A DNA stretch of 22,274 nt from a virus. The stretch covers positions 1 through 22,274 of IMG/VR virus record IMGVR_UViG_3300007539_007478; one strand, given 5' to 3'. The stretch's first letter is position 1. Every line of letters begins with the position of its first letter. The position numbers and the translations under genes were made by a program. Positions 511 to 8,045 of the stretch are shown here, piece by piece. The notes beneath the pieces were generated by a model that was given only the letters and a program-made list of their open reading frames with translations, ran no database searches and had not been told where the DNA came from.

Positions 511-555
511 AAAAAAAAGAAGGCCCATAAACAATAAGTTTTAGGCCTTTTTAAA
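511..555 (-). terminator. Rho-independent terminator after the prkA-like gene
   Basis: Read on the minus strand, AAGGCC (544-549) pairs with GGCCTT (520-525), with a further AAAC/GTTT pairing inside the loop, and is followed by TTC and a run of eight T (511-518). It lies about 25 nt past the stop of the PrkA-like gene and closes the neck/PrkA-YhbH-SpoVR transcription unit. The rest of the 381-575 gap is AT-rich leader of the next gene. It holds a small possible hairpin with direct repeats of gagcgca at 459-472, but no promoter I can defend. Confidence 0.8.
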
Positions 556-575
556 AAGATTATTTTTTGATTTTT

Positions 576-2516
576 CTAGCTGTCTCGCCAGAGATTATTT
601 GAAGCATATTTTATAATCTCGTTAGCTGAATCTTCGTTATATCCATACTCGTCTATAAGAGTTTTAACCATTTCATTATATTTGCCTTGTTGCTTTTTAT
701 CGCGTGACTTAGACTTGGTAACAATTCTGGATATATCTCTAACTGAATCAAGAAGTTTATTTTCTATTGCTTCCTTGAGAGGACCATAAGATCTCCAATC
801 AATTGTTTCTTTTCTTCTTAATTTAGCAAACATATAAGCTGTGATATCTGCTCTGAAATTTTCTCTTGCTGAACCTACAATTCCAATTTGCTCTTCTATT
901 GAGCACAAGAAGCGTTCATCAGCAATCATTTCTTCACCAGTGACATTATCTTTAACTTTTGTACAGTTAACATAGGCTTCTGCATGGTCTAAATAATTGT
1001 TGAAAAGAGATTCTGCCTGCTCTTGATAAGCAGAAACAAAAGCCTTTGTTATTTCAAGTTCTAGAATTTTCAAGTATTCATCATGAAGTTCTTTCTGAAG
1101 GAAGGCCAAATATTTAGCTCTCAAATCTTCAACAACGACTTGTTCTTTAACTTGCTTTACCAAAGCATCTCTGATAGAAATAGGAGTAACCATATTTTTA
1201 TCTGAATCTGCCAGTGCGGAGTCGATAGCTTTCATAATAAATCTAGTAGAAATACCTGTCATGCCCTCGTCTCTAGCTTCATCTCTAAGATCATTGATAT
1301 CGATTTTTTTAATATGGCCTTTTTCAATGATTTCTTCACCATTATAGATTTTCATTTTTGTTATTGGATCTACTTTGTTTGAATCTTTCAATCTAGTTAA
1401 GACTGAAAACATTGCTGCAATCTCAAGAGTGTGAGGAGCAATATGAGCTTCAAAATCAGATTCGTCTAATAACTTTTTATAAATCTTTTGCTCTTCATCA
1501 ACTTCCAAGCAATATGGAACGTTAACTCTAACAATTCTATCCAAGATAGCCTCGTTTGTGCTTTCAGATTTAAACTTGATCCATTCTGCTTCATTGCAGT
1601 GCGCCAAAATGACTCCATCAAAATAAATCATTGCACCCTTTCCTGGGCTTGGAACGGCCTTCTCTTGCGTTGCAGTAATCATTGTATGTAAGAACTCGAT
1701 TTCATTTTTGAAAACCTCTACAAACTCTACTATACCACGATTTCCAACATTAAAAGCACCGTTCAAAGAAAGAACACGAGGATCATCTTCTGGATAAAGA
1801 TCCATCTTTGAAATATCTTCTGAACCAATCAAAATACTGGTGTCTTGCGTGTTAGCATCCATAGGAGGAACAACACCGATGCCGCGCCTTCCTCGGATAG
1901 AAAATGTTGATTCAACCACTGGAACTGATAGATAATCGCCATTGTACTCTTCCAAAAGGCGATGACGACAAACAGGACACAAATCGCCTTCTATTTTGAT
2001 TTTATAAATTTTTGAAAATTCTTCTCTCAATCCTCTAGGAACAAGATGCAAAGGCTCTTCTTGTATAGGACAATCCTTAATGTGATAAAAAGGACCAGAT
2101 CCTTCAAGTGCTCTTTTAATGTGCTCAACAAGCGCAGACTTACCAGCACCAACTGGACCGAGCAATAAAAGAACTTGGCGGCTTTCTTCTCCTCGAAGTG
2201 CTGCTGAGTGAAGATATCTCATAATCTTAGCAAGAGAACGCTCCATTCCAAAAAAGCGACTTTGGAAATAATCATATGTTCTTAACTGTTCACCATTAAA
2301 AAGATTATTACAACGAGCATCATTCTCATCAAGTCTAGTTATACCTTCTGAAGTAATGGTATTATAAAGCCTCTTGTGAGCTAACATAGCAATACTATTA
2401 TCTTTCTCAATTAATTCAAGATAATCAGAGAAGACACCTGAAAATTTTTCTTTCTGAGATGTTTTCTTGTGATTGTCAGCAATCTCTAAAAATTTATTTG
2501 TTTTTGATTTTTTCAT
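576..2516 (-). CDS. prkA: PrkA/YeaG-family AAA+ serine protein kinase
   Basis: 646 aa, the usual full length of the family (E. coli YeaG about 644, B. subtilis PrkA about 631). An N-terminal AAA+ domain carries a Walker A motif GPVGAGKS (residues 120-127), the family block NRGIVEFVEVFKNEIEFLH (about 259-277) followed by TATQE, a Walker-B-like segment MIYFDGVILAHCNEAEW (about 296-312) and LDRIVRVNVPYC (about 325-336). The C-terminal part corresponds to the kinase-like domain and looks intact. A CPVC pair (180-183) resembles the cysteine motif I recall in Bacillus-type PrkA and do not recall in E. coli YeaG. The bacterial family is linked to stress adaptation, nitrogen-starvation survival (YeaG) and sporulation (PrkA), and usually works with YhbH/YeaH and SpoVR/YcgB, both encoded just upstream here. 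The start lies 1 nt after the spoVR stop, so it is probably translationally coupled. Identity is clear; its role in a phage is unknown. Confidence 0.93.
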   Translation of the reverse strand: MKKSKTNKFLEIADNHKKTSQKEKFSGVFSDYLELIEKDNSIAMLAHKRLYNTITSEGITRLDENDARCNNLFNGEQLRTYDYFQSRFFGMERSLAKIMRYLHSAALRGEESRQVLLLLGPVGAGKSALVEHIKRALEGSGPFYHIKDCPIQEEPLHLVPRGLREEFSKIYKIKIEGDLCPVCRHRLLEEYNGDYLSVPVVESTFSIRGRRGIGVVPPMDANTQDTSILIGSEDISKMDLYPEDDPRVLSLNGAFNVGNRGIVEFVEVFKNEIEFLHTMITATQEKAVPSPGKGAMIYFDGVILAHCNEAEWIKFKSESTNEAILDRIVRVNVPYCLEVDEEQKIYKKLLDESDFEAHIAPHTLEIAAMFSVLTRLKDSNKVDPITKMKIYNGEEIIEKGHIKKIDINDLRDEARDEGMTGISTRFIMKAIDSALADSDKNMVTPISIRDALVKQVKEQVVVEDLRAKYLAFLQKELHDEYLKILELEITKAFVSAYQEQAESLFNNYLDHAEAYVNCTKVKDNVTGEEMIADERFLCSIEEQIGIVGSARENFRADITAYMFAKLRRKETIDWRSYGPLKEAIENKLLDSVRDISRIVTKSKSRDKKQQGKYNEMVKTLIDEYGYNEDSANEIIKYASNNLWRDS

Positions 2517-2517
2517 G

Positions 2518-3780
2518 TTAAAATTCCCAAAGGTCTCCCTCTATTATTGTGGTAAATACTACATCGTCTCCCCAAAGGAAACGAATATAATCATAAACTC
2601 TATTAGCGTATTGTAAATCAAGATCTCGACCATCATGCTCATGTTTAATGTACATAGTTTGCATTCTTTTATCGTACCCCTCAACCAATACAATAGGTGC
2701 CGAATTGAGCCCTATATTCTTAATTAGTGAGTTTCTTACGCTTTTCCAACCTTCTTTATCAGAAATATCATCAATTGAATAAGTGCCAGATCTTCTTTTA
2801 TAAGAATAATTAAATAAATTTAATTCTCTGCAAACAGATTCATCCAAATATTTCATTATGAATGCTTCATCATCATGTGTTTCTCTTGCGAGGAGGCAAG
2901 CATCGAAGCCTTGTTCTTCTTCTATCTTCTTAAATAAAGTATAACCCAAATGATAAGGATTGATTCTGCCTACTATTGGTCGAACAACTTGATTATGAGT
3001 CTTCAAAAAAGCTATCTGATGTTTGTCTGGAAGTTCTAAATCATGCATTATTTTTTCATGAATCATCACAGCCCAACCTTCATTCATGATTTTTGTTTTT
3101 GCTTGAGGTATAAAATATCTAGATCTAGTTTCAACCATTCCTATCAGATCTCTTTCCCAATCTTCAAGACCTCTTGCGTTGTTCTTAATAAATCCTAATA
3201 AATTATATTCTTTTTTTTCTTCTTTGCTTTCCTCATCGTCGAAATCAATTTGATTTTTGATTCCTGGAGTTCTTGGTACTTGATATTGTATCGAGTGACA
3301 AGCATCTAATATTTTCTCTACCTTATCTATTCCTATGTTTGGATCTTCGATATATTTTTGAACTCTCTTTGAGGCCGATTTAAAACGAGAAATTATATTA
3401 GCCGCGTCCGTTTCTTTAAACATTCTATTGTTTTTGAAAAAATCAGAGTGTCCAACACAATGAGCCATTGTTAGTAAGTGAGTGCTCATTGGATTTTCTA
3501 ACATAAGATAAGCAATACTTGGATTACTATTAATAATCATCTCATAAGGCAAGCCTTCCATTCCGAGATTATATCGAGTAGCTGTTTGCTCAAAAGATTT
3601 CCCGAAAGACCAATGACGATAATGAGTAGGCAAACCAGTATATGCCATCGCGGCTAACATTTCTTTATAATCAAGAATTTCATACTCAATTGGATACCAG
3701 TCTAAGCCATATTTTTCTTTGGCTATCTCACAAATCTTGTCATCCCAATCTTGCAATTCCTTAACGCTCCAGTCTTTCAT
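2518..3780 (-). CDS. spoVR: SpoVR/YcgB family protein
   Basis: 420 aa, shorter than the bacterial proteins (about 470-510). Both ends align with the family, so the difference is shortening of internal segments rather than truncation. Hallmarks seen: HWSFGK (56-61), INSNPSIAYLMLENPMS (83-99), MAHCVGHSDFFKNN (105-118), PQAKTKIMNEGWAVMIHEK (225-243), RINPYHLGYTLF (272-283) and a C-terminal FLWGDDVVF (401-409). The conserved H107, H111, E234 and H241 could form a metal site; that is inference. In Bacillus SpoVR affects spore cortex formation, and in Proteobacteria YcgB is a stress/stationary-phase protein; no biochemical activity is firmly known to me. The start overlaps the YhbH stop by 4 nt (ATGA) and the stop is 1 nt before the PrkA start, so all three should be co-translated. 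Confidence 0.92.
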   Translation of the reverse strand: MKDWSVKELQDWDDKICEIAKEKYGLDWYPIEYEILDYKEMLAAMAYTGLPTHYRHWSFGKSFEQTATRYNLGMEGLPYEMIINSNPSIAYLMLENPMSTHLLTMAHCVGHSDFFKNNRMFKETDAANIISRFKSASKRVQKYIEDPNIGIDKVEKILDACHSIQYQVPRTPGIKNQIDFDDEESKEEKKEYNLLGFIKNNARGLEDWERDLIGMVETRSRYFIPQAKTKIMNEGWAVMIHEKIMHDLELPDKHQIAFLKTHNQVVRPIVGRINPYHLGYTLFKKIEEEQGFDACLLARETHDDEAFIMKYLDESVCRELNLFNYSYKRRSGTYSIDDISDKEGWKSVRNSLIKNIGLNSAPIVLVEGYDKRMQTMYIKHEHDGRDLDLQYANRVYDYIRFLWGDDVVFTTIIEGDLWEF

Positions 3781-4985
3781 TTCCCAGAACCTCCAAACAG
3801 TTTAACAAACGAAGGCCATATTTGTGATCCTTCTGATATTTTAAGTCTTTTAAAGTTATCTCCAAGCAACCCGAGCAACATTGGCCATAATCCACCTGGA
3901 TCTTCTTCATATCCGGCACCATAAGTATTAAATAATGTTGGATTAAACGATGCTAAATTAGGATTTATCTCTGCATAACATATCATTTGATTTAGCTCTT
4001 TTAATTCCCTAAATAAATCAATTGTTTTTTTATTATCAACTGACCAGTTCTCACCATCACCGCAATAAAATGTGTAGATATTCCAGTTCGAAGGGTGATA
4101 TCTTTTGCTTATTATCTCTTTTTCCATTTCAAGCGCTGTTGACATCAACGTGCCACCAAAAGTCGATCTTTGGAAGAACTCTTCTTCATTTACTTCTTTT
4201 GCTTCTGATGAGTGAGAAATAAATACAACATCTATATTGTCATATTTGTATCTCAAGAATTGATATAACAGAAAGTAAAAACTTCTAGCTAAGTACTTCT
4301 TGTCTTTATCCATTGATCCAGAAACATCCATAAGAAAGAATATAACTGCTGAATTATTTTCTTCTTGCTTTTCTTTCATGTGTTTGTATTTTAAATCATC
4401 TTCATGAAAAGGAAATCTCTCTCCCGCTTCAGGATCATAAGTTCCAGCAGCAATAGCTCTTTTCTTTCTCTTTAATTTTCTTTTTAGGGTTTCTTTTTTC
4501 GAAAGCTTAGAACGCAAGCCTTTTTTTCTATACCCGCTTCTTTTCAGCTTCTTGTCTTTCAGAAATTTAAAGCGCTTTTTATCTAAATCTGGTAATTCTA
4601 ATTCTGCAAATAAATATTCGGCTAGCTCTTCGAGTGTTACTTCCACTTCATAATATTCTTCGCCTGCCTCATTACTGCCTTTTTTACCAGCAGCTTTGCC
4701 ACTTTTATTGCCCCTTCTTTTAAGTATCTGTCCTTTTTTAATGTCTTTGCCAGGAGCAGACCCAGCTTTAGAGTTATCTTCATTATCGCCATATACGAAT
4801 TGATATTCCTTTATTCCCTTAACTGGTATTTTAACTTTTTTGTTTCCATCTTGACCTATAATTGTTTCTTCGGCCACAACATCCTTGATGCCTTCTTGCA
4901 GAGCTTTCTCTATTTTTTTCTTATGTCTTTTTCTATCTGCTGCGCTTCGGTCAGCTATGGTTTTGTGCTCTCTAAAAGTGCTCAT
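3777..4985 (-). CDS. yhbH: YhbH/YeaH (DUF444) protein with VWA domain
   Basis: 402 aa (E. coli YeaH about 427). The N-terminal half is Lys/Gly-rich and probably flexible (to about residue 110), followed by a basic region (135-180). The C-terminal half is a von Willebrand A domain: FFLMDVSGSM gives the MIDAS D220-x-S222-x-S224 motif, and FGGT (277-280, Thr279) is the expected second metal-binding loop. The family stretches AKEVNEEEFF (262-271) and RYHPSNWNIY follow, then a GDGENW loop. DUF444 proteins are the standard genomic partner of PrkA and SpoVR and are thought to act in the same pathway. VWA/AAA+ pairs elsewhere (for example MoxR systems) work as metal-dependent adaptor and ATPase. The gene starts 1 nt after the stop of the neck gene, so it is part of the late structural operon. 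Identity is confident; function here is unknown. Confidence 0.92.
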   Translation of the reverse strand: MSTFREHKTIADRSAADRKRHKKKIEKALQEGIKDVVAEETIIGQDGNKKVKIPVKGIKEYQFVYGDNEDNSKAGSAPGKDIKKGQILKRRGNKSGKAAGKKGSNEAGEEYYEVEVTLEELAEYLFAELELPDLDKKRFKFLKDKKLKRSGYRKKGLRSKLSKKETLKRKLKRKKRAIAAGTYDPEAGERFPFHEDDLKYKHMKEKQEENNSAVIFFLMDVSGSMDKDKKYLARSFYFLLYQFLRYKYDNIDVVFISHSSEAKEVNEEEFFQRSTFGGTLMSTALEMEKEIISKRYHPSNWNIYTFYCGDGENWSVDNKKTIDLFRELKELNQMICYAEINPNLASFNPTLFNTYGAGYEEDPGGLWPMLLGLLGDNFKRLKISEGSQIWPSFVKLFGGSGK

Positions 4986-4986
4986 T

Positions 4987-5826
4987 TTATACCAACTTTA
5001 ATATTTCTAGGATTACCAAATCGTCTTCAGCGATCTCAATGTTATTATAAATAGTCCCGTCTGATATGTAAAAATCATTTTCTCCTGGTGTTTCTGAGAT
5101 TACATATCTTATACCGTTTATAAATATTGCTGCGGCTGAAAATGCTATCGGAGTTGTTACTGCCAAGGCGGCATTCAAAGGAGTATCAATCGGTACATCA
5201 CCAGTTGGAATGTAACTGTAAATGACTCTTACGATAGAATCACTTCCGCCTGTGGGGCCGGAAGATCCTCCTGAATCACCTGCTGCTGCTTCTGCTGCGG
5301 CTGCAGCCCTTATCTCTGCTACGGTAGTTTCAGGAATAACACTCAAGTCAATTATGCCTTTTCTTGTTTTGATACACGTAGCTTCTATCTGAAATAGATG
5401 CTCAACTTGTCCAAAAAGCTGTCTGCCCTCCGATAATGAAACTATTTCGAAAAATGAAGTCCCATATTGAACATAGTCACCTTCTCTTACATAGAGATTC
5501 TGATCTTCGAACAAGCGACGCTCATGGAAGCGAACTGTAATCGTGTGAGTTTTGTCTAGACCATATCCTTCTGTGACAGTTCCTATATCTCCAAATTCGA
5601 CCAAAGCATATACCCGAACTGGTGGCAAAAAGCTTTTTTCAATTGCTTCACCATATAGGGGGTGATAATTTGAACGCTCAACAGATAAAGGAAGATAAGT
5701 TATGCCTTGGCCTATTACTCTTTCAAGCAACTCATCGTTAACTTGTTTTACAAGATTTCTTTCTTTTTCACCAAGAAAAAGTGGTGGAGGAGGATTAGTT
5801 GGTTTAGACCACTTATTATTAGCCAT
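4987..5826 (-). CDS. Neck protein, T4 gp14-like, with extra C-terminal domain
   Basis: 279 aa (T4 gp14 is 256). Residues 93-160 show the pattern I recall for gp14: a strand-turn segment HTITVRFHERRLFEDQ, then EGDYVQYGTSFFEIVS (115-130), then LFGQVEHLFQIEATCIKTRKG, matching in order T4's EGDLIYFP..SLFEI and YQLGQNAIRKITAGKF. In T4, gp14 forms with gp13 the neck that closes the filled head and accepts the tail. After the core comes an Ala-rich then Gly/Ser-rich linker (172-195) and a roughly 80-residue beta-rich domain (197-279) with INGIRYVISETPGENDFYI, which looks like an appended surface or fibre-type domain. The start shares one nucleotide (TAATG) with the stop of the gp15-like gene. Assignment is by remembered motif pattern plus neighbours, not by search. 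Confidence 0.62.
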   Translation of the reverse strand: MANNKWSKPTNPPPPLFLGEKERNLVKQVNDELLERVIGQGITYLPLSVERSNYHPLYGEAIEKSFLPPVRVYALVEFGDIGTVTEGYGLDKTHTITVRFHERRLFEDQNLYVREGDYVQYGTSFFEIVSLSEGRQLFGQVEHLFQIEATCIKTRKGIIDLSVIPETTVAEIRAAAAAEAAAGDSGGSSGPTGGSDSIVRVIYSYIPTGDVPIDTPLNAALAVTTPIAFSAAAIFINGIRYVISETPGENDFYISDGTIYNNIEIAEDDLVILEILKLV

Positions 5827-6698
5827 TAATCATTTTCCCTTTCATCACCCATTATCACTCTTTCTCTGGGTATTCTTACTTCTACAGCATTTTCTCTTAT
5901 TGATATTTTTGGTCGATTATCATTCTTACCGGCTCCCAATAAATATCCCAATATTTTTAAATTGATTATTGTTTGAAATTTTCTTTCTTCTTCACCAAGA
6001 TTCGATAAGTTATTATCAAGAGTAAAGTCATTCTCAATGAATCCCTCAAACTTGTGACCATCACGGTGTATAAAGAAGTTATTGATTTGCCCAGTGGTAG
6101 TTATGAATGGAGTAAAAATCTCATTCATTTGTTGTTGATATTCTGTGTGTACAGTGACAACATAATTAGCAACCACGTAAGTTGGCACCGGCATTGTTAA
6201 AGTCTCATATACAACTTTATTGTTTTGAAAAGGAAAATTCTGTTGTCCGAATCGTCTTTGTGAATCAGCATTAGCAAAATTTCTTGTTTTATCTTGTTGT
6301 ATTCTTCTTGCTACTGTTATCGCGCCACCTCTTGGATCGTTTATTTGAGGTATATGAGACCAAGCAACACCTTTCATTGTAGGGTCTTTTATGAGAGAAG
6401 TTCTCTCTATAGTTAAAACAGGTAATGTGAAAGTGTTTTTAGAATTTCTTAAATCTTTGTTATCTTTCACTTGAAACGCGCGCTCCGGCATTGACCATAT
6501 TATGGGAACTTTTTTCCATCCCTCATTTGTAGTGCAATAAATATCCAGTGTCTCATTAATCCAGTCATTAACAGCGAAATCGATTGTCTCAATTGTCGAT
6601 GGCATAATTGATATTTCTTTCAGTTCAGGAGATGTCTTTTTATCTTCTTCTTTGAAATACGGTCTAAAACCTTTAAATTTATCTTTTTGACTAGACAT
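5826..6698 (-). CDS. Tail completion / sheath stabiliser protein, T4 gp15-like
   Basis: 290 aa (T4 gp15 is 272). The order of blocks fits gp15: KVPIIWSMPERAF (about 63-75) corresponds to RVPITYASKEHF, then TLPVLTIERTSLIKDP corresponds to TILPRINLHLVDF. Next VVYETLTMPVPTYVVANY, EYQQQMNEIFTPFITT and RKFQTIINLKILGYLL correspond to MIYELSIFTRYEDDMFQIVEQILPYF and RIEWSLTFEVNGWMY. In T4, gp15 forms the terminal hexamer at the top of the tail that locks tube and sheath and binds the neck. It sits between the gp13-like and gp14-like genes, as expected for a neck/tail-terminator block. The C-terminus (about 265-290) is charged and differs from T4. The gap to the upstream gene is 6 nt; the downstream junction is a 1-nt TAATG overlap. 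Moderate confidence because the match is by pattern only. Confidence 0.6.
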   Translation of the reverse strand: MSSQKDKFKGFRPYFKEEDKKTSPELKEISIMPSTIETIDFAVNDWINETLDIYCTTNEGWKKVPIIWSMPERAFQVKDNKDLRNSKNTFTLPVLTIERTSLIKDPTMKGVAWSHIPQINDPRGGAITVARRIQQDKTRNFANADSQRRFGQQNFPFQNNKVVYETLTMPVPTYVVANYVVTVHTEYQQQMNEIFTPFITTTGQINNFFIHRDGHKFEGFIENDFTLDNNLSNLGEEERKFQTIINLKILGYLLGAGKNDNRPKISIRENAVEVRIPRERVIMGDEREND

Positions 6699-6704
6699 TA
6701 TATA

Positions 6705-7973
6705 TTATCCCTGGAATATTATCATTGGCACCTTTTGTTGGATTGATGCTACTGCGTCTGATTTTTCAGCATCTGTCTTTGCCATCTCAGAATAAGTTAA
6801 TTGATCTAAGATTTCTTTTAATTCTTCTCTTAATTTATCTTGTTCTGTTTGGGCTTGAGACAAAAGCTCTGATGCGTTCAAAGTTACTGACTCACCAGGT
6901 ATAGGTATTGTTTGGAATTTTCCTCTGATTTGTGCTAAGGTTTCTTTAGATAAAGCAAGTGCGAATCTTCTTATCCACTGTTTTCCTATGGCATTAATAT
7001 TTTCATAAGGTATATTATCAAAAGGTATTGTATTCGCATTGTTTATTCCTTCAACTCCCGAAGAATATCCCTCTGTGTCATCCCAACTGTTTGGTATAAC
7101 CGAGAAGTCAACCCACATTTGGTTATAGTTTGACAAAACTTGTGGTTGTGGAAATATTCTTAGCATATTATTCTTAAGCTCGTAAGAATAATGAGATAAT
7201 CTCGTCCATAAGTGATCTTCAAAGGCCATGGCTTGCAATTTGTTTTGCCAAGTTGGAATTAATTCAAAAGTGGAATCATCAGTATACTGACCATAATAAT
7301 TCATATTTCCCACTACATTGAGGCCACCAAAATAACCAAAGAACCTCCACATAGCGTGCGGTGTTTTATAATAAACTTTTTTGATAATAACTCTTTTATC
7401 ACCAACGATACCAGCATATGGTACAATTTCTCCGTTTGATCCAGTTCCAGTGGCGGAAGAAGAAGAAATAATAGTCTGCAGATCATAATCTTGTTGATTT
7501 TCAACCAACTGGAAAGAAGCAGAATATATGGGTACTGTTCCACCGACACCAGCCTCAAAAGAAAACCCATCAGAAACTCTTCGAGCATATTCAAACATAA
7601 CGCGAGGATACTTTAAGTTAACTCCCGATGGACCTGTTTTTAATTCACCGTCTTGATCAAATGTACCTGTTGCTTGTCCTAAAACATCAGAAAGTATATT
7701 TTTTGCTTGATGAAGGTTTACCAAATAACTGTATTCTAGAACAGCCTCTTCGTAATTAGCATATACATTTCTGTCTTTCAATTCAATATCTAATACATCG
7801 CCACCTAGTTTTTTGTAAGTATATGCCACTTGGTCTGCTGCGCCAGATAAAAAGTCACCAGAATCAGCATAAATACCAAAAGGTAACGAACTTGCCACAT
7901 CAGACACAGTTCCAGTAACGGAAAGTATCGATTTACTCATTTGGCTTTCAGGGGTTAATGTTGGAAATGCCAC
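6705..7973 (-). CDS. Neck protein, T4 gp13-like
   Basis: 422 aa, larger than T4 gp13 (309). The start codon is GTG (plus-strand cac at 7971-7973), chosen because AGGAGGG lies 8 nt upstream and the N-terminus MAFPTLTPESQMSK follows in frame. Family-like parts are the N-terminal KKLGGDVLDIELKDRNVYAN and YEEAVLEYSYLVN segment (about 54-87), the middle beta-rich insert with many aromatic residues, and the C-terminal block WIRRFALALSKETLAQIRGK (about 332-351). The latter is followed by the sequence FQTIPIPGESVTLN and a helical tail EQDKLREELKEILDQL. This C-terminal block is, as I recall it, typical of gp13-like proteins of marine T4-type phages. The product should join the head portal to the tail with gp14. 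It is the first gene after the capsid terminator, so its level depends on read-through or a separate promoter. Confidence 0.58.
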   Translation of the reverse strand: MAFPTLTPESQMSKSILSVTGTVSDVASSLPFGIYADSGDFLSGAADQVAYTYKKLGGDVLDIELKDRNVYANYEEAVLEYSYLVNLHQAKNILSDVLGQATGTFDQDGELKTGPSGVNLKYPRVMFEYARRVSDGFSFEAGVGGTVPIYSASFQLVENQQDYDLQTIISSSSATGTGSNGEIVPYAGIVGDKRVIIKKVYYKTPHAMWRFFGYFGGLNVVGNMNYYGQYTDDSTFELIPTWQNKLQAMAFEDHLWTRLSHYSYELKNNMLRIFPQPQVLSNYNQMWVDFSVIPNSWDDTEGYSSGVEGINNANTIPFDNIPYENINAIGKQWIRRFALALSKETLAQIRGKFQTIPIPGESVTLNASELLSQAQTEQDKLREELKEILDQLTYSEMAKTDAEKSDAVASIQQKVPMIIFQG

Positions 7974-8009: not shown

Positions 8010-8045
8010 GCACAAAACCCCCCCACAAAAAGTGGGAGGGCGTTA
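8010..8045 (-). terminator. Strong terminator after the major capsid gene
   Basis: On the minus strand CCCTCCCAC (8032-8040) pairs with GTGGGGGGG (8018-8026), nine pairs including one G-T wobble, with a TTTTT loop and a short T-rich tail (TTTTGTG). It sits about 30 nt after the capsid stop. Because neck and PrkA-YhbH-SpoVR genes follow on the same strand with no obvious promoter between, it probably acts as a partial terminator that lets the capsid mRNA dominate. Confidence 0.85.

Follow-up and report, generated by a model that had tools for sequence, protein, structure and literature searches.

Why would a virus carry, next to its neck genes, the three genes prkA, yhbH and spoVR that form an operon in bacteria, and what might their products do together during infection? 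The question is raised by a 22,274-base virus record, referred to here as the window (the whole stretch of DNA that was analysed).

Gene content of the window

An initial annotation had recognised full-length PrkA, YhbH and SpoVR genes in the window, and both the assignments and the coordinates were borne out. The AAA_PrkA, PrkA C-terminal, DUF444 and SpoVR profiles all matched, with family E-values on the order of 1e-105 or better. The motifs it had listed (GPVGAGKS in PrkA; DVSGSM and GGT in YhbH; HWSFGK, FFKNN and NEGWA in SpoVR) were found and are conserved in bacteria and phages. Pfam profile searches also recovered the genes by which T4-like phages are recognised, namely Gp23 capsid (1e-73), Gp20 portal (Portal_T4, 2.2e-74), S77 protease (Peptidase_S77, 1e-32) and terminase (Terminase_6N, 3e-11), together with an Ad2-type connector; the virus is T4-like, infects bacteria and is probably marine. 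The T4-type surroundings described earlier stand for capsid and packaging genes. Of the neck genes, only the one at 6705-7973 matched a profile; those at 4987-5826 and 5826-6698 matched none and were assigned by position. The features are as follows.

511..549, minus strand: terminator-like hairpin and T run just past PrkA, putative downstream border of the unit (-13.8 kcal/mol, z -3.5)
576..2516, minus strand: PrkA/YeaG-family AAA+ protein, 646 aa (Pfam, invariant columns, alignment)
2518..3780, minus strand: SpoVR, 420 aa, with H107, H111 and E234 as proposed metal ligands (Pfam, AF2 model, VIA-align, conservation)
3777..4985, minus strand: YhbH/YeaH (DUF444), 402 aa, vWA domain (Pfam, fold, residues)
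4987..5826, minus strand: probable neck gene, its stop adjoining the YhbH start (position; homologue in Flavobacterium phage immuto)
5826..6698, minus strand: probable neck gene (position and conserved synteny)
6705..7973, minus strand: head-tail adaptor Ad2-like connector, first gene of the putative transcription unit (phrog_211, 1.8e-12)
8017..8041, minus strand: terminator-like hairpin between capsid and connector genes, putative upstream border of the unit (-20.1 kcal/mol, z -4.1)

On the minus strand the trio is read in the order YhbH (4985-3777), SpoVR (3780-2518), PrkA (2516-576). YhbH and SpoVR share a 4-base overlap, and a single base separates SpoVR from PrkA. The connector gene carries AGGAGG ahead of a GTG start. 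We infer that connector, two neck genes, YhbH, SpoVR and PrkA form one six-gene unit between the two hairpins and that, in the window lineage, the module would be expressed late, with the neck genes. The late operon of the initial annotation is in this sense a reading of gene content, overlaps and the two terminators. T4-type late promoter motifs were not in excess, and TATAAATA was absent from the coding strand. Sigma-70-like sites occurred near chance level; the best of them (5072-5044), 59 bases ahead of YhbH, is possibly an internal promoter.

Recurrence and gene order in other viruses

Two scans recovered the trio in 99 loci from 87 distinct virus contigs. YhbH, SpoVR and PrkA were each present in 98 of the 99 loci, and the trio was incomplete just where a contig ends. 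The phage order YhbH-SpoVR-PrkA was kept in all loci but four divergent contigs (L094-L097). Bacterial loci with a linked trio had the order PrkA-YhbH-SpoVR, with a single exception (L101, NHDW01000006.1), a 306-kb contig in a Methylococcaceae MAG on which gp23 and the phage-order module were both found. Because of this gp23 it is probably a phage contig, from a jumbo phage. A chimera or misassembly of phage and bacterial DNA, against which the initial annotation had cautioned, was ruled out by the recurrence of the trio in 87 contigs; the arrangement capsid-neck-module is repeated in ∼30 contigs.

Three clades were distinguished. Clade A, comprising the window and about 30 contigs, has the order capsid-connector-neck-neck-module. 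In clade B a PLP-enzyme gene follows the module, for example a pyridoxal-phosphate-dependent enzyme gene (PF00291) directly behind PrkA at L007:14460-15437. In many clade B loci, genes for a MoxR-type ATPase and a DUF2201 metallopeptidase-vWA protein are also found 5-9 kb upstream; this pair (L007:1163-3542 and relatives) makes a second AAA+/vWA/metallopeptidase-like set in the same genome. In clade C a degenerate GroEL-like gene (GroEL match 6e-26) follows the module, downstream of PrkA, in 29 loci (L027:14443-15735, L046:14744-16087, L036:14814-16214 and 26 others). Its match spans GroEL residues 72-410, much of the N-terminal equatorial domain being missing. The modules of clades B and C lie outside the structural genes. 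Gp23 was found elsewhere on 12 of 49 trio contigs tested, most of the largest among them, so these contigs are T4-like phages too. In two near-identical contigs (L056 and L057) the YhbH frame at 5453-6653 is broken, leaving 245 aa, by a frameshift or a sequencing error.

The module as accessory cargo at the neck/tail-sheath junction

When the connector protein was used as query, 35 contigs with an identity of at least 74% (74-81%) were informative. The module follows the neck genes in 11 of these and is absent from 24. Several relatives without the module have the tail sheath gene directly behind the neck genes; in one relative that has it, neck and tail sheath genes are separated by the module and two further genes, one small and one long and fibre-like. 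No PrkA was found on the module-less relatives, whose contigs reach 161.7 kb and are mostly fragments. Since close relatives do without it, the block is accessory cargo at this junction and not a virion core gene.

This distribution weighs on the main rival to a role in host physiology, which sees the module as a chaperone of virion assembly or maturation, an AAA+/MIDAS/metal-site complex that would fold, remodel or trim structural proteins late in infection. In the window lineage, the putative cotranscription with neck genes would suit such a role, as would the GroEL-like gene behind PrkA in clade C and the setting of the trio in Thermus phage Lalka8, next to portal/terminase genes, between minor head protein and terminase. 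There is also precedent (PMC7824862): assembly of the virion has been suggested as the role of a jumbo-phage MoxR and metallopeptidase-vWA pair, and an archaeal virus reportedly requires a MoxR-vWA pair for its tail. A pair of the jumbo-phage kind is present near the module in clade B. Yet 24 of the 35 contigs with so similar a connector lack the module at this site, several pass straight from neck to tail sheath, a 161.7-kb relative has no PrkA, and the module stands away from structural genes in clades B and C. The earlier suggestion that the module assists assembly is accordingly weakened by close relatives that share the neck and tail-sheath genes but lack the module, and kept alive by the GroEL-like and portal/terminase neighbours elsewhere; we consider it somewhat unlikely.

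An accessory, mobile-block distribution is also typical of cargo that protects the infected cell or the phage from rival phages or host defence. A PADLOC search, however, gave one weak P-loop match (E 1.7e-4 over 93 residues) and nothing convincing, and a protective role seems very improbable.

Origin, co-variation and selection

The phage copies form one clade in each gene tree (support 100 for PrkA, 100 for SpoVR and 91 for YhbH), which answers the initial annotation's proposal to compare the three histories: all three genes share a single phage clade. Inside it the gene trees show few well-supported conflicts. The PrkA phage clade is nested in bacterial diversity, near Clostridia and others; PrkA of the marine phages shares 53-65% identity with Clostridia/Deltaproteobacteria/Binatota-type PrkA and 32% with E. 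coli YeaG. Pairwise distances in clade A were strongly correlated within the trio (Mantel r 0.88-0.89), less so with the connector (0.61-0.68) and least with the capsid gene (0.23-0.32), which indicates that the block travels as a single piece, in part independently of the head genes.

Median dN was 0.12 for PrkA, 0.17 for SpoVR, 0.22 for YhbH and 0.17 for the capsid gene, with synonymous sites near saturation; dN/dS was about 0.1 where computable. The trio is under strong purifying selection. That the module is passive cargo or a chimeric assembly with no function might be argued from the many close relatives without it, but this is hardly credible given its recurrence in 87 contigs, its intact frames and residues, and this selection. 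The earlier claim that the three genes act as one unit is strongly supported by their single origin in the trees, the Mantel correlations, the retention of the trio on long-enough contigs and separate captures of the whole trio. We count at least three separate uptakes from bacteria, the placement of the Thermus phages being the least certain.

Predicted properties of the three proteins

In PrkA, the AAA_PrkA (2.4e-144) and PrkA C-terminal (2.4e-79) domains span residues 29-637. K126 (Walker A), E264, E267, N308 and R327 were invariant across 40 sequences. By analogy with MoxR/Mg-chelatase proteins we take E264/E267 to be Walker-B-like, N308 to be sensor-1 and R327 to be the arginine residue. 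Residues 300-301 were dropped as Walker B candidates, both being part of the sensor-1 strand. The sole solved structural relative is 9xip.

If PrkA were a Ser/Thr kinase, it would phosphorylate host proteins, assisted by YhbH and SpoVR; phosphorylation of host targets had been suggested by the initial annotation. E. coli YeaG has been described as a kinase whose K426A mutant is catalytically defective (PMC10954441), and in the alignment the equivalent lysine, K429, is kept in the marine phages compared. Bacillus-type PrkA has Asn at this position and Thermus phage PrkA has Asp, which means that the lysine cannot be a family-wide catalytic residue. Moreover, purified Bacillus PrkA oligomerises with ATP and has neither kinase nor protease activity (PMC13001217), and the strongest motifs are of the AAA+ ATPase type. 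A phosphorylating role is doubtful on these grounds, and we regard it as improbable.

YhbH matched the DUF444 profile at 4.5e-105, with a score under the NCBIfam equivalog cut-offs. Its MIDAS is complete in the alignment (D220-x-S222-x-S224, T279, D310). The model has a vWA fold (Z up to 17), and its matches include the Rea1/MDN1 MIDAS domain (Z 14.9) and NorQD.

SpoVR matched its profile at 6.2e-116 and contains the HW.FGK, AH..GH, FFKNN and NEGWA motifs. H107, H111 and E234 are conserved in every SpoVR compared (bacterial, E. coli YcgB, Thermus phage and huge phage), YcgB having one additional residue between the two histidines. Alignments A1/A4 and the AF2 model start without the initial Met, and their numbering is one lower than in the full protein. 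In this model (pLDDT 82.8, pTM 0.83), H107/H111 lie on helix 97-116 and E234 on helix 229-247. Sequence and predicted model both fit the gluzincin arrangement of two histidines on one helix and a glutamate on a later helix. The site was predicted from sequence before the VIA-align structure search, in which the top rows were metallopeptidases of M3, M32, M1, M2 and M9 (Z 11.9 to about 7.5), although Z ∼12 is possible by chance in mostly helical models. Plain Foldseek with the model gave nothing significant (best E 0.31), and the sequence had no significant match in the PDB. SpoVR is accordingly predicted to have a gluzincin-like fold and metal site without the usual catalytic glutamate: at the position of the HExxH glutamate the compared SpoVR proteins carry Cys, Val or Ala. 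For this reason it was not classed as an active peptidase, and because the general base is missing it is likely a pseudo-enzyme or an enzyme of other chemistry. In one divergent virus contig (L094:11107-13452) an apparent intein follows NEGWA directly, the position expected of a critical site.

Proposed function

ViaA on RavA and the Rea1 MIDAS domain are precedents for adaptor and substrate docking on an AAA+ ring. As the best explanation, held with somewhat less than even confidence, we propose that a functional module was captured once from bacteria by the ancestor of a T4-like lineage and works as an ATP-driven remodelling complex on host physiology. PrkA would form an ATP-driven AAA+ ring; YhbH, through its MIDAS/vWA domain, would dock the substrate on this ring, as NorD does on NorQ, ViaA on RavA and the Rea1 MIDAS domain; SpoVR would be a third subunit whose gluzincin-like fold and metal site bind or process the substrate. 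Made late, with the neck genes, the module would most likely act on host proteins and keep a slow-growing infected host in the stressed, low-activity state promoted by the bacterial YeaG/YeaH set. Ring, adaptor and metal site are suggested by the residues and folds described above. The target is largely guessed; host physiology is preferred over virion building because the block is accessory. Managing starved hosts and remodelling targets late, both put forward by the initial annotation, are possible.

In E. coli starved of nitrogen, YeaG/YeaH put a brake on metabolism (PMC10954441), and an R. etli prkA mutant had no stress phenotype (PMC3188799); the function of this operon, widespread in bacteria, differs among species and its biochemistry is disputed. 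A wider proposal, possible but doubtful, is that PrkA, YhbH and SpoVR are an unrecognised three-part machine in bacteria generally (AAA+ unfoldase ring, MIDAS adaptor, gluzincin-fold metal subunit), repeatedly captured whole by large phages to remodel or process proteins during infection. That the three genes are retained under strong selection, reordered and separately captured argues that their products form one machine, and the predicted SpoVR metal site (H107, H111, E234) offers simple point mutants.

Comparison with known systems

Single members of the trio are already known in phages. PrkA and SpoVR are annotated in Ralstonia jumbo phage RsoM2USA (PMC8504454), and a serine kinase and SpoVR appear among the annotations of Thermus phage records. 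For the three-gene module of marine T4-like phages as such, no describing paper was found in the open-access literature. In an oxygen-minimum-zone virome, spoVR was the most abundant sporulation-related viral gene and was interpreted as serving spore formation (PMC8940887). Our results correct this reading of phage spoVR: here the gene is accompanied by PrkA and YhbH, and the window offers no sign of sporulation. Two further records were set aside. The yeaGH genes of Enterobacter phage LAU1, at the end of the record and 97.7% identical to E. coli YeaG, are probably host DNA and were left uncounted; the 'sporulation protein' of Bacillus phage CM1 is a lone vWA protein with no trio.

Like the trio, the MoxR AAA+/vWA pairs NorQ-NorD and RavA-ViaA combine an AAA+ ATPase with a MIDAS/vWA partner, NorQ/NorD being a ring of the AAA+ type with a vWA protein as its adaptor (PMC9976466). 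PrkA is nevertheless an AAA+ family distinct from MoxR, with its own C-terminal domain, and the likeness of the trio rests on gene linkage and the vWA fold. The jumbo-phage MoxR and metallopeptidase-vWA pair has a metallopeptidase-like domain too, whereas in the trio SpoVR is a separate protein and lacks the HExxH glutamate.

Three huge uncultured phages (LR745206, LR756504 and LR756511) have the complete trio, as the window does, but in the bacterial gene order, and no association with T4-like neck genes was seen in them. PrkA of LR745206 and LR756504 is YeaG-type, at 62-64% identity to E. coli YeaG; the 62-65% identity to YeaG seen for huge-phage PrkA, against 32% for marine phage PrkA, points to apparently separate captures. 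The Thermus phages phiYS40, phiLo, MN1 and Lalka8 have the trio in the order of the window, YhbH-SpoVR-(X)-PrkA. Their PrkA, at about 33% identity, groups with Bacillus-type PrkA on long branches, and their SpoVR is 20-24% identical; they apparently captured the trio separately. Thermus phages L181, L183, L188 and L189 show the permuted order of the marine phages despite the different placement of their PrkA in the tree. With the bacterial prkA-yhbH-spoVR operon (yeaG-yeaH and ycgB in E. coli; a three-gene operon in R. etli), the window shares the three families, all at full length, and their conserved residues. It differs in its order, YhbH-SpoVR-PrkA instead of PrkA-YhbH-SpoVR, in its shorter SpoVR (420 aa versus 510 aa in E. 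coli), and in having its genes overlap and sit in a phage structural operon.
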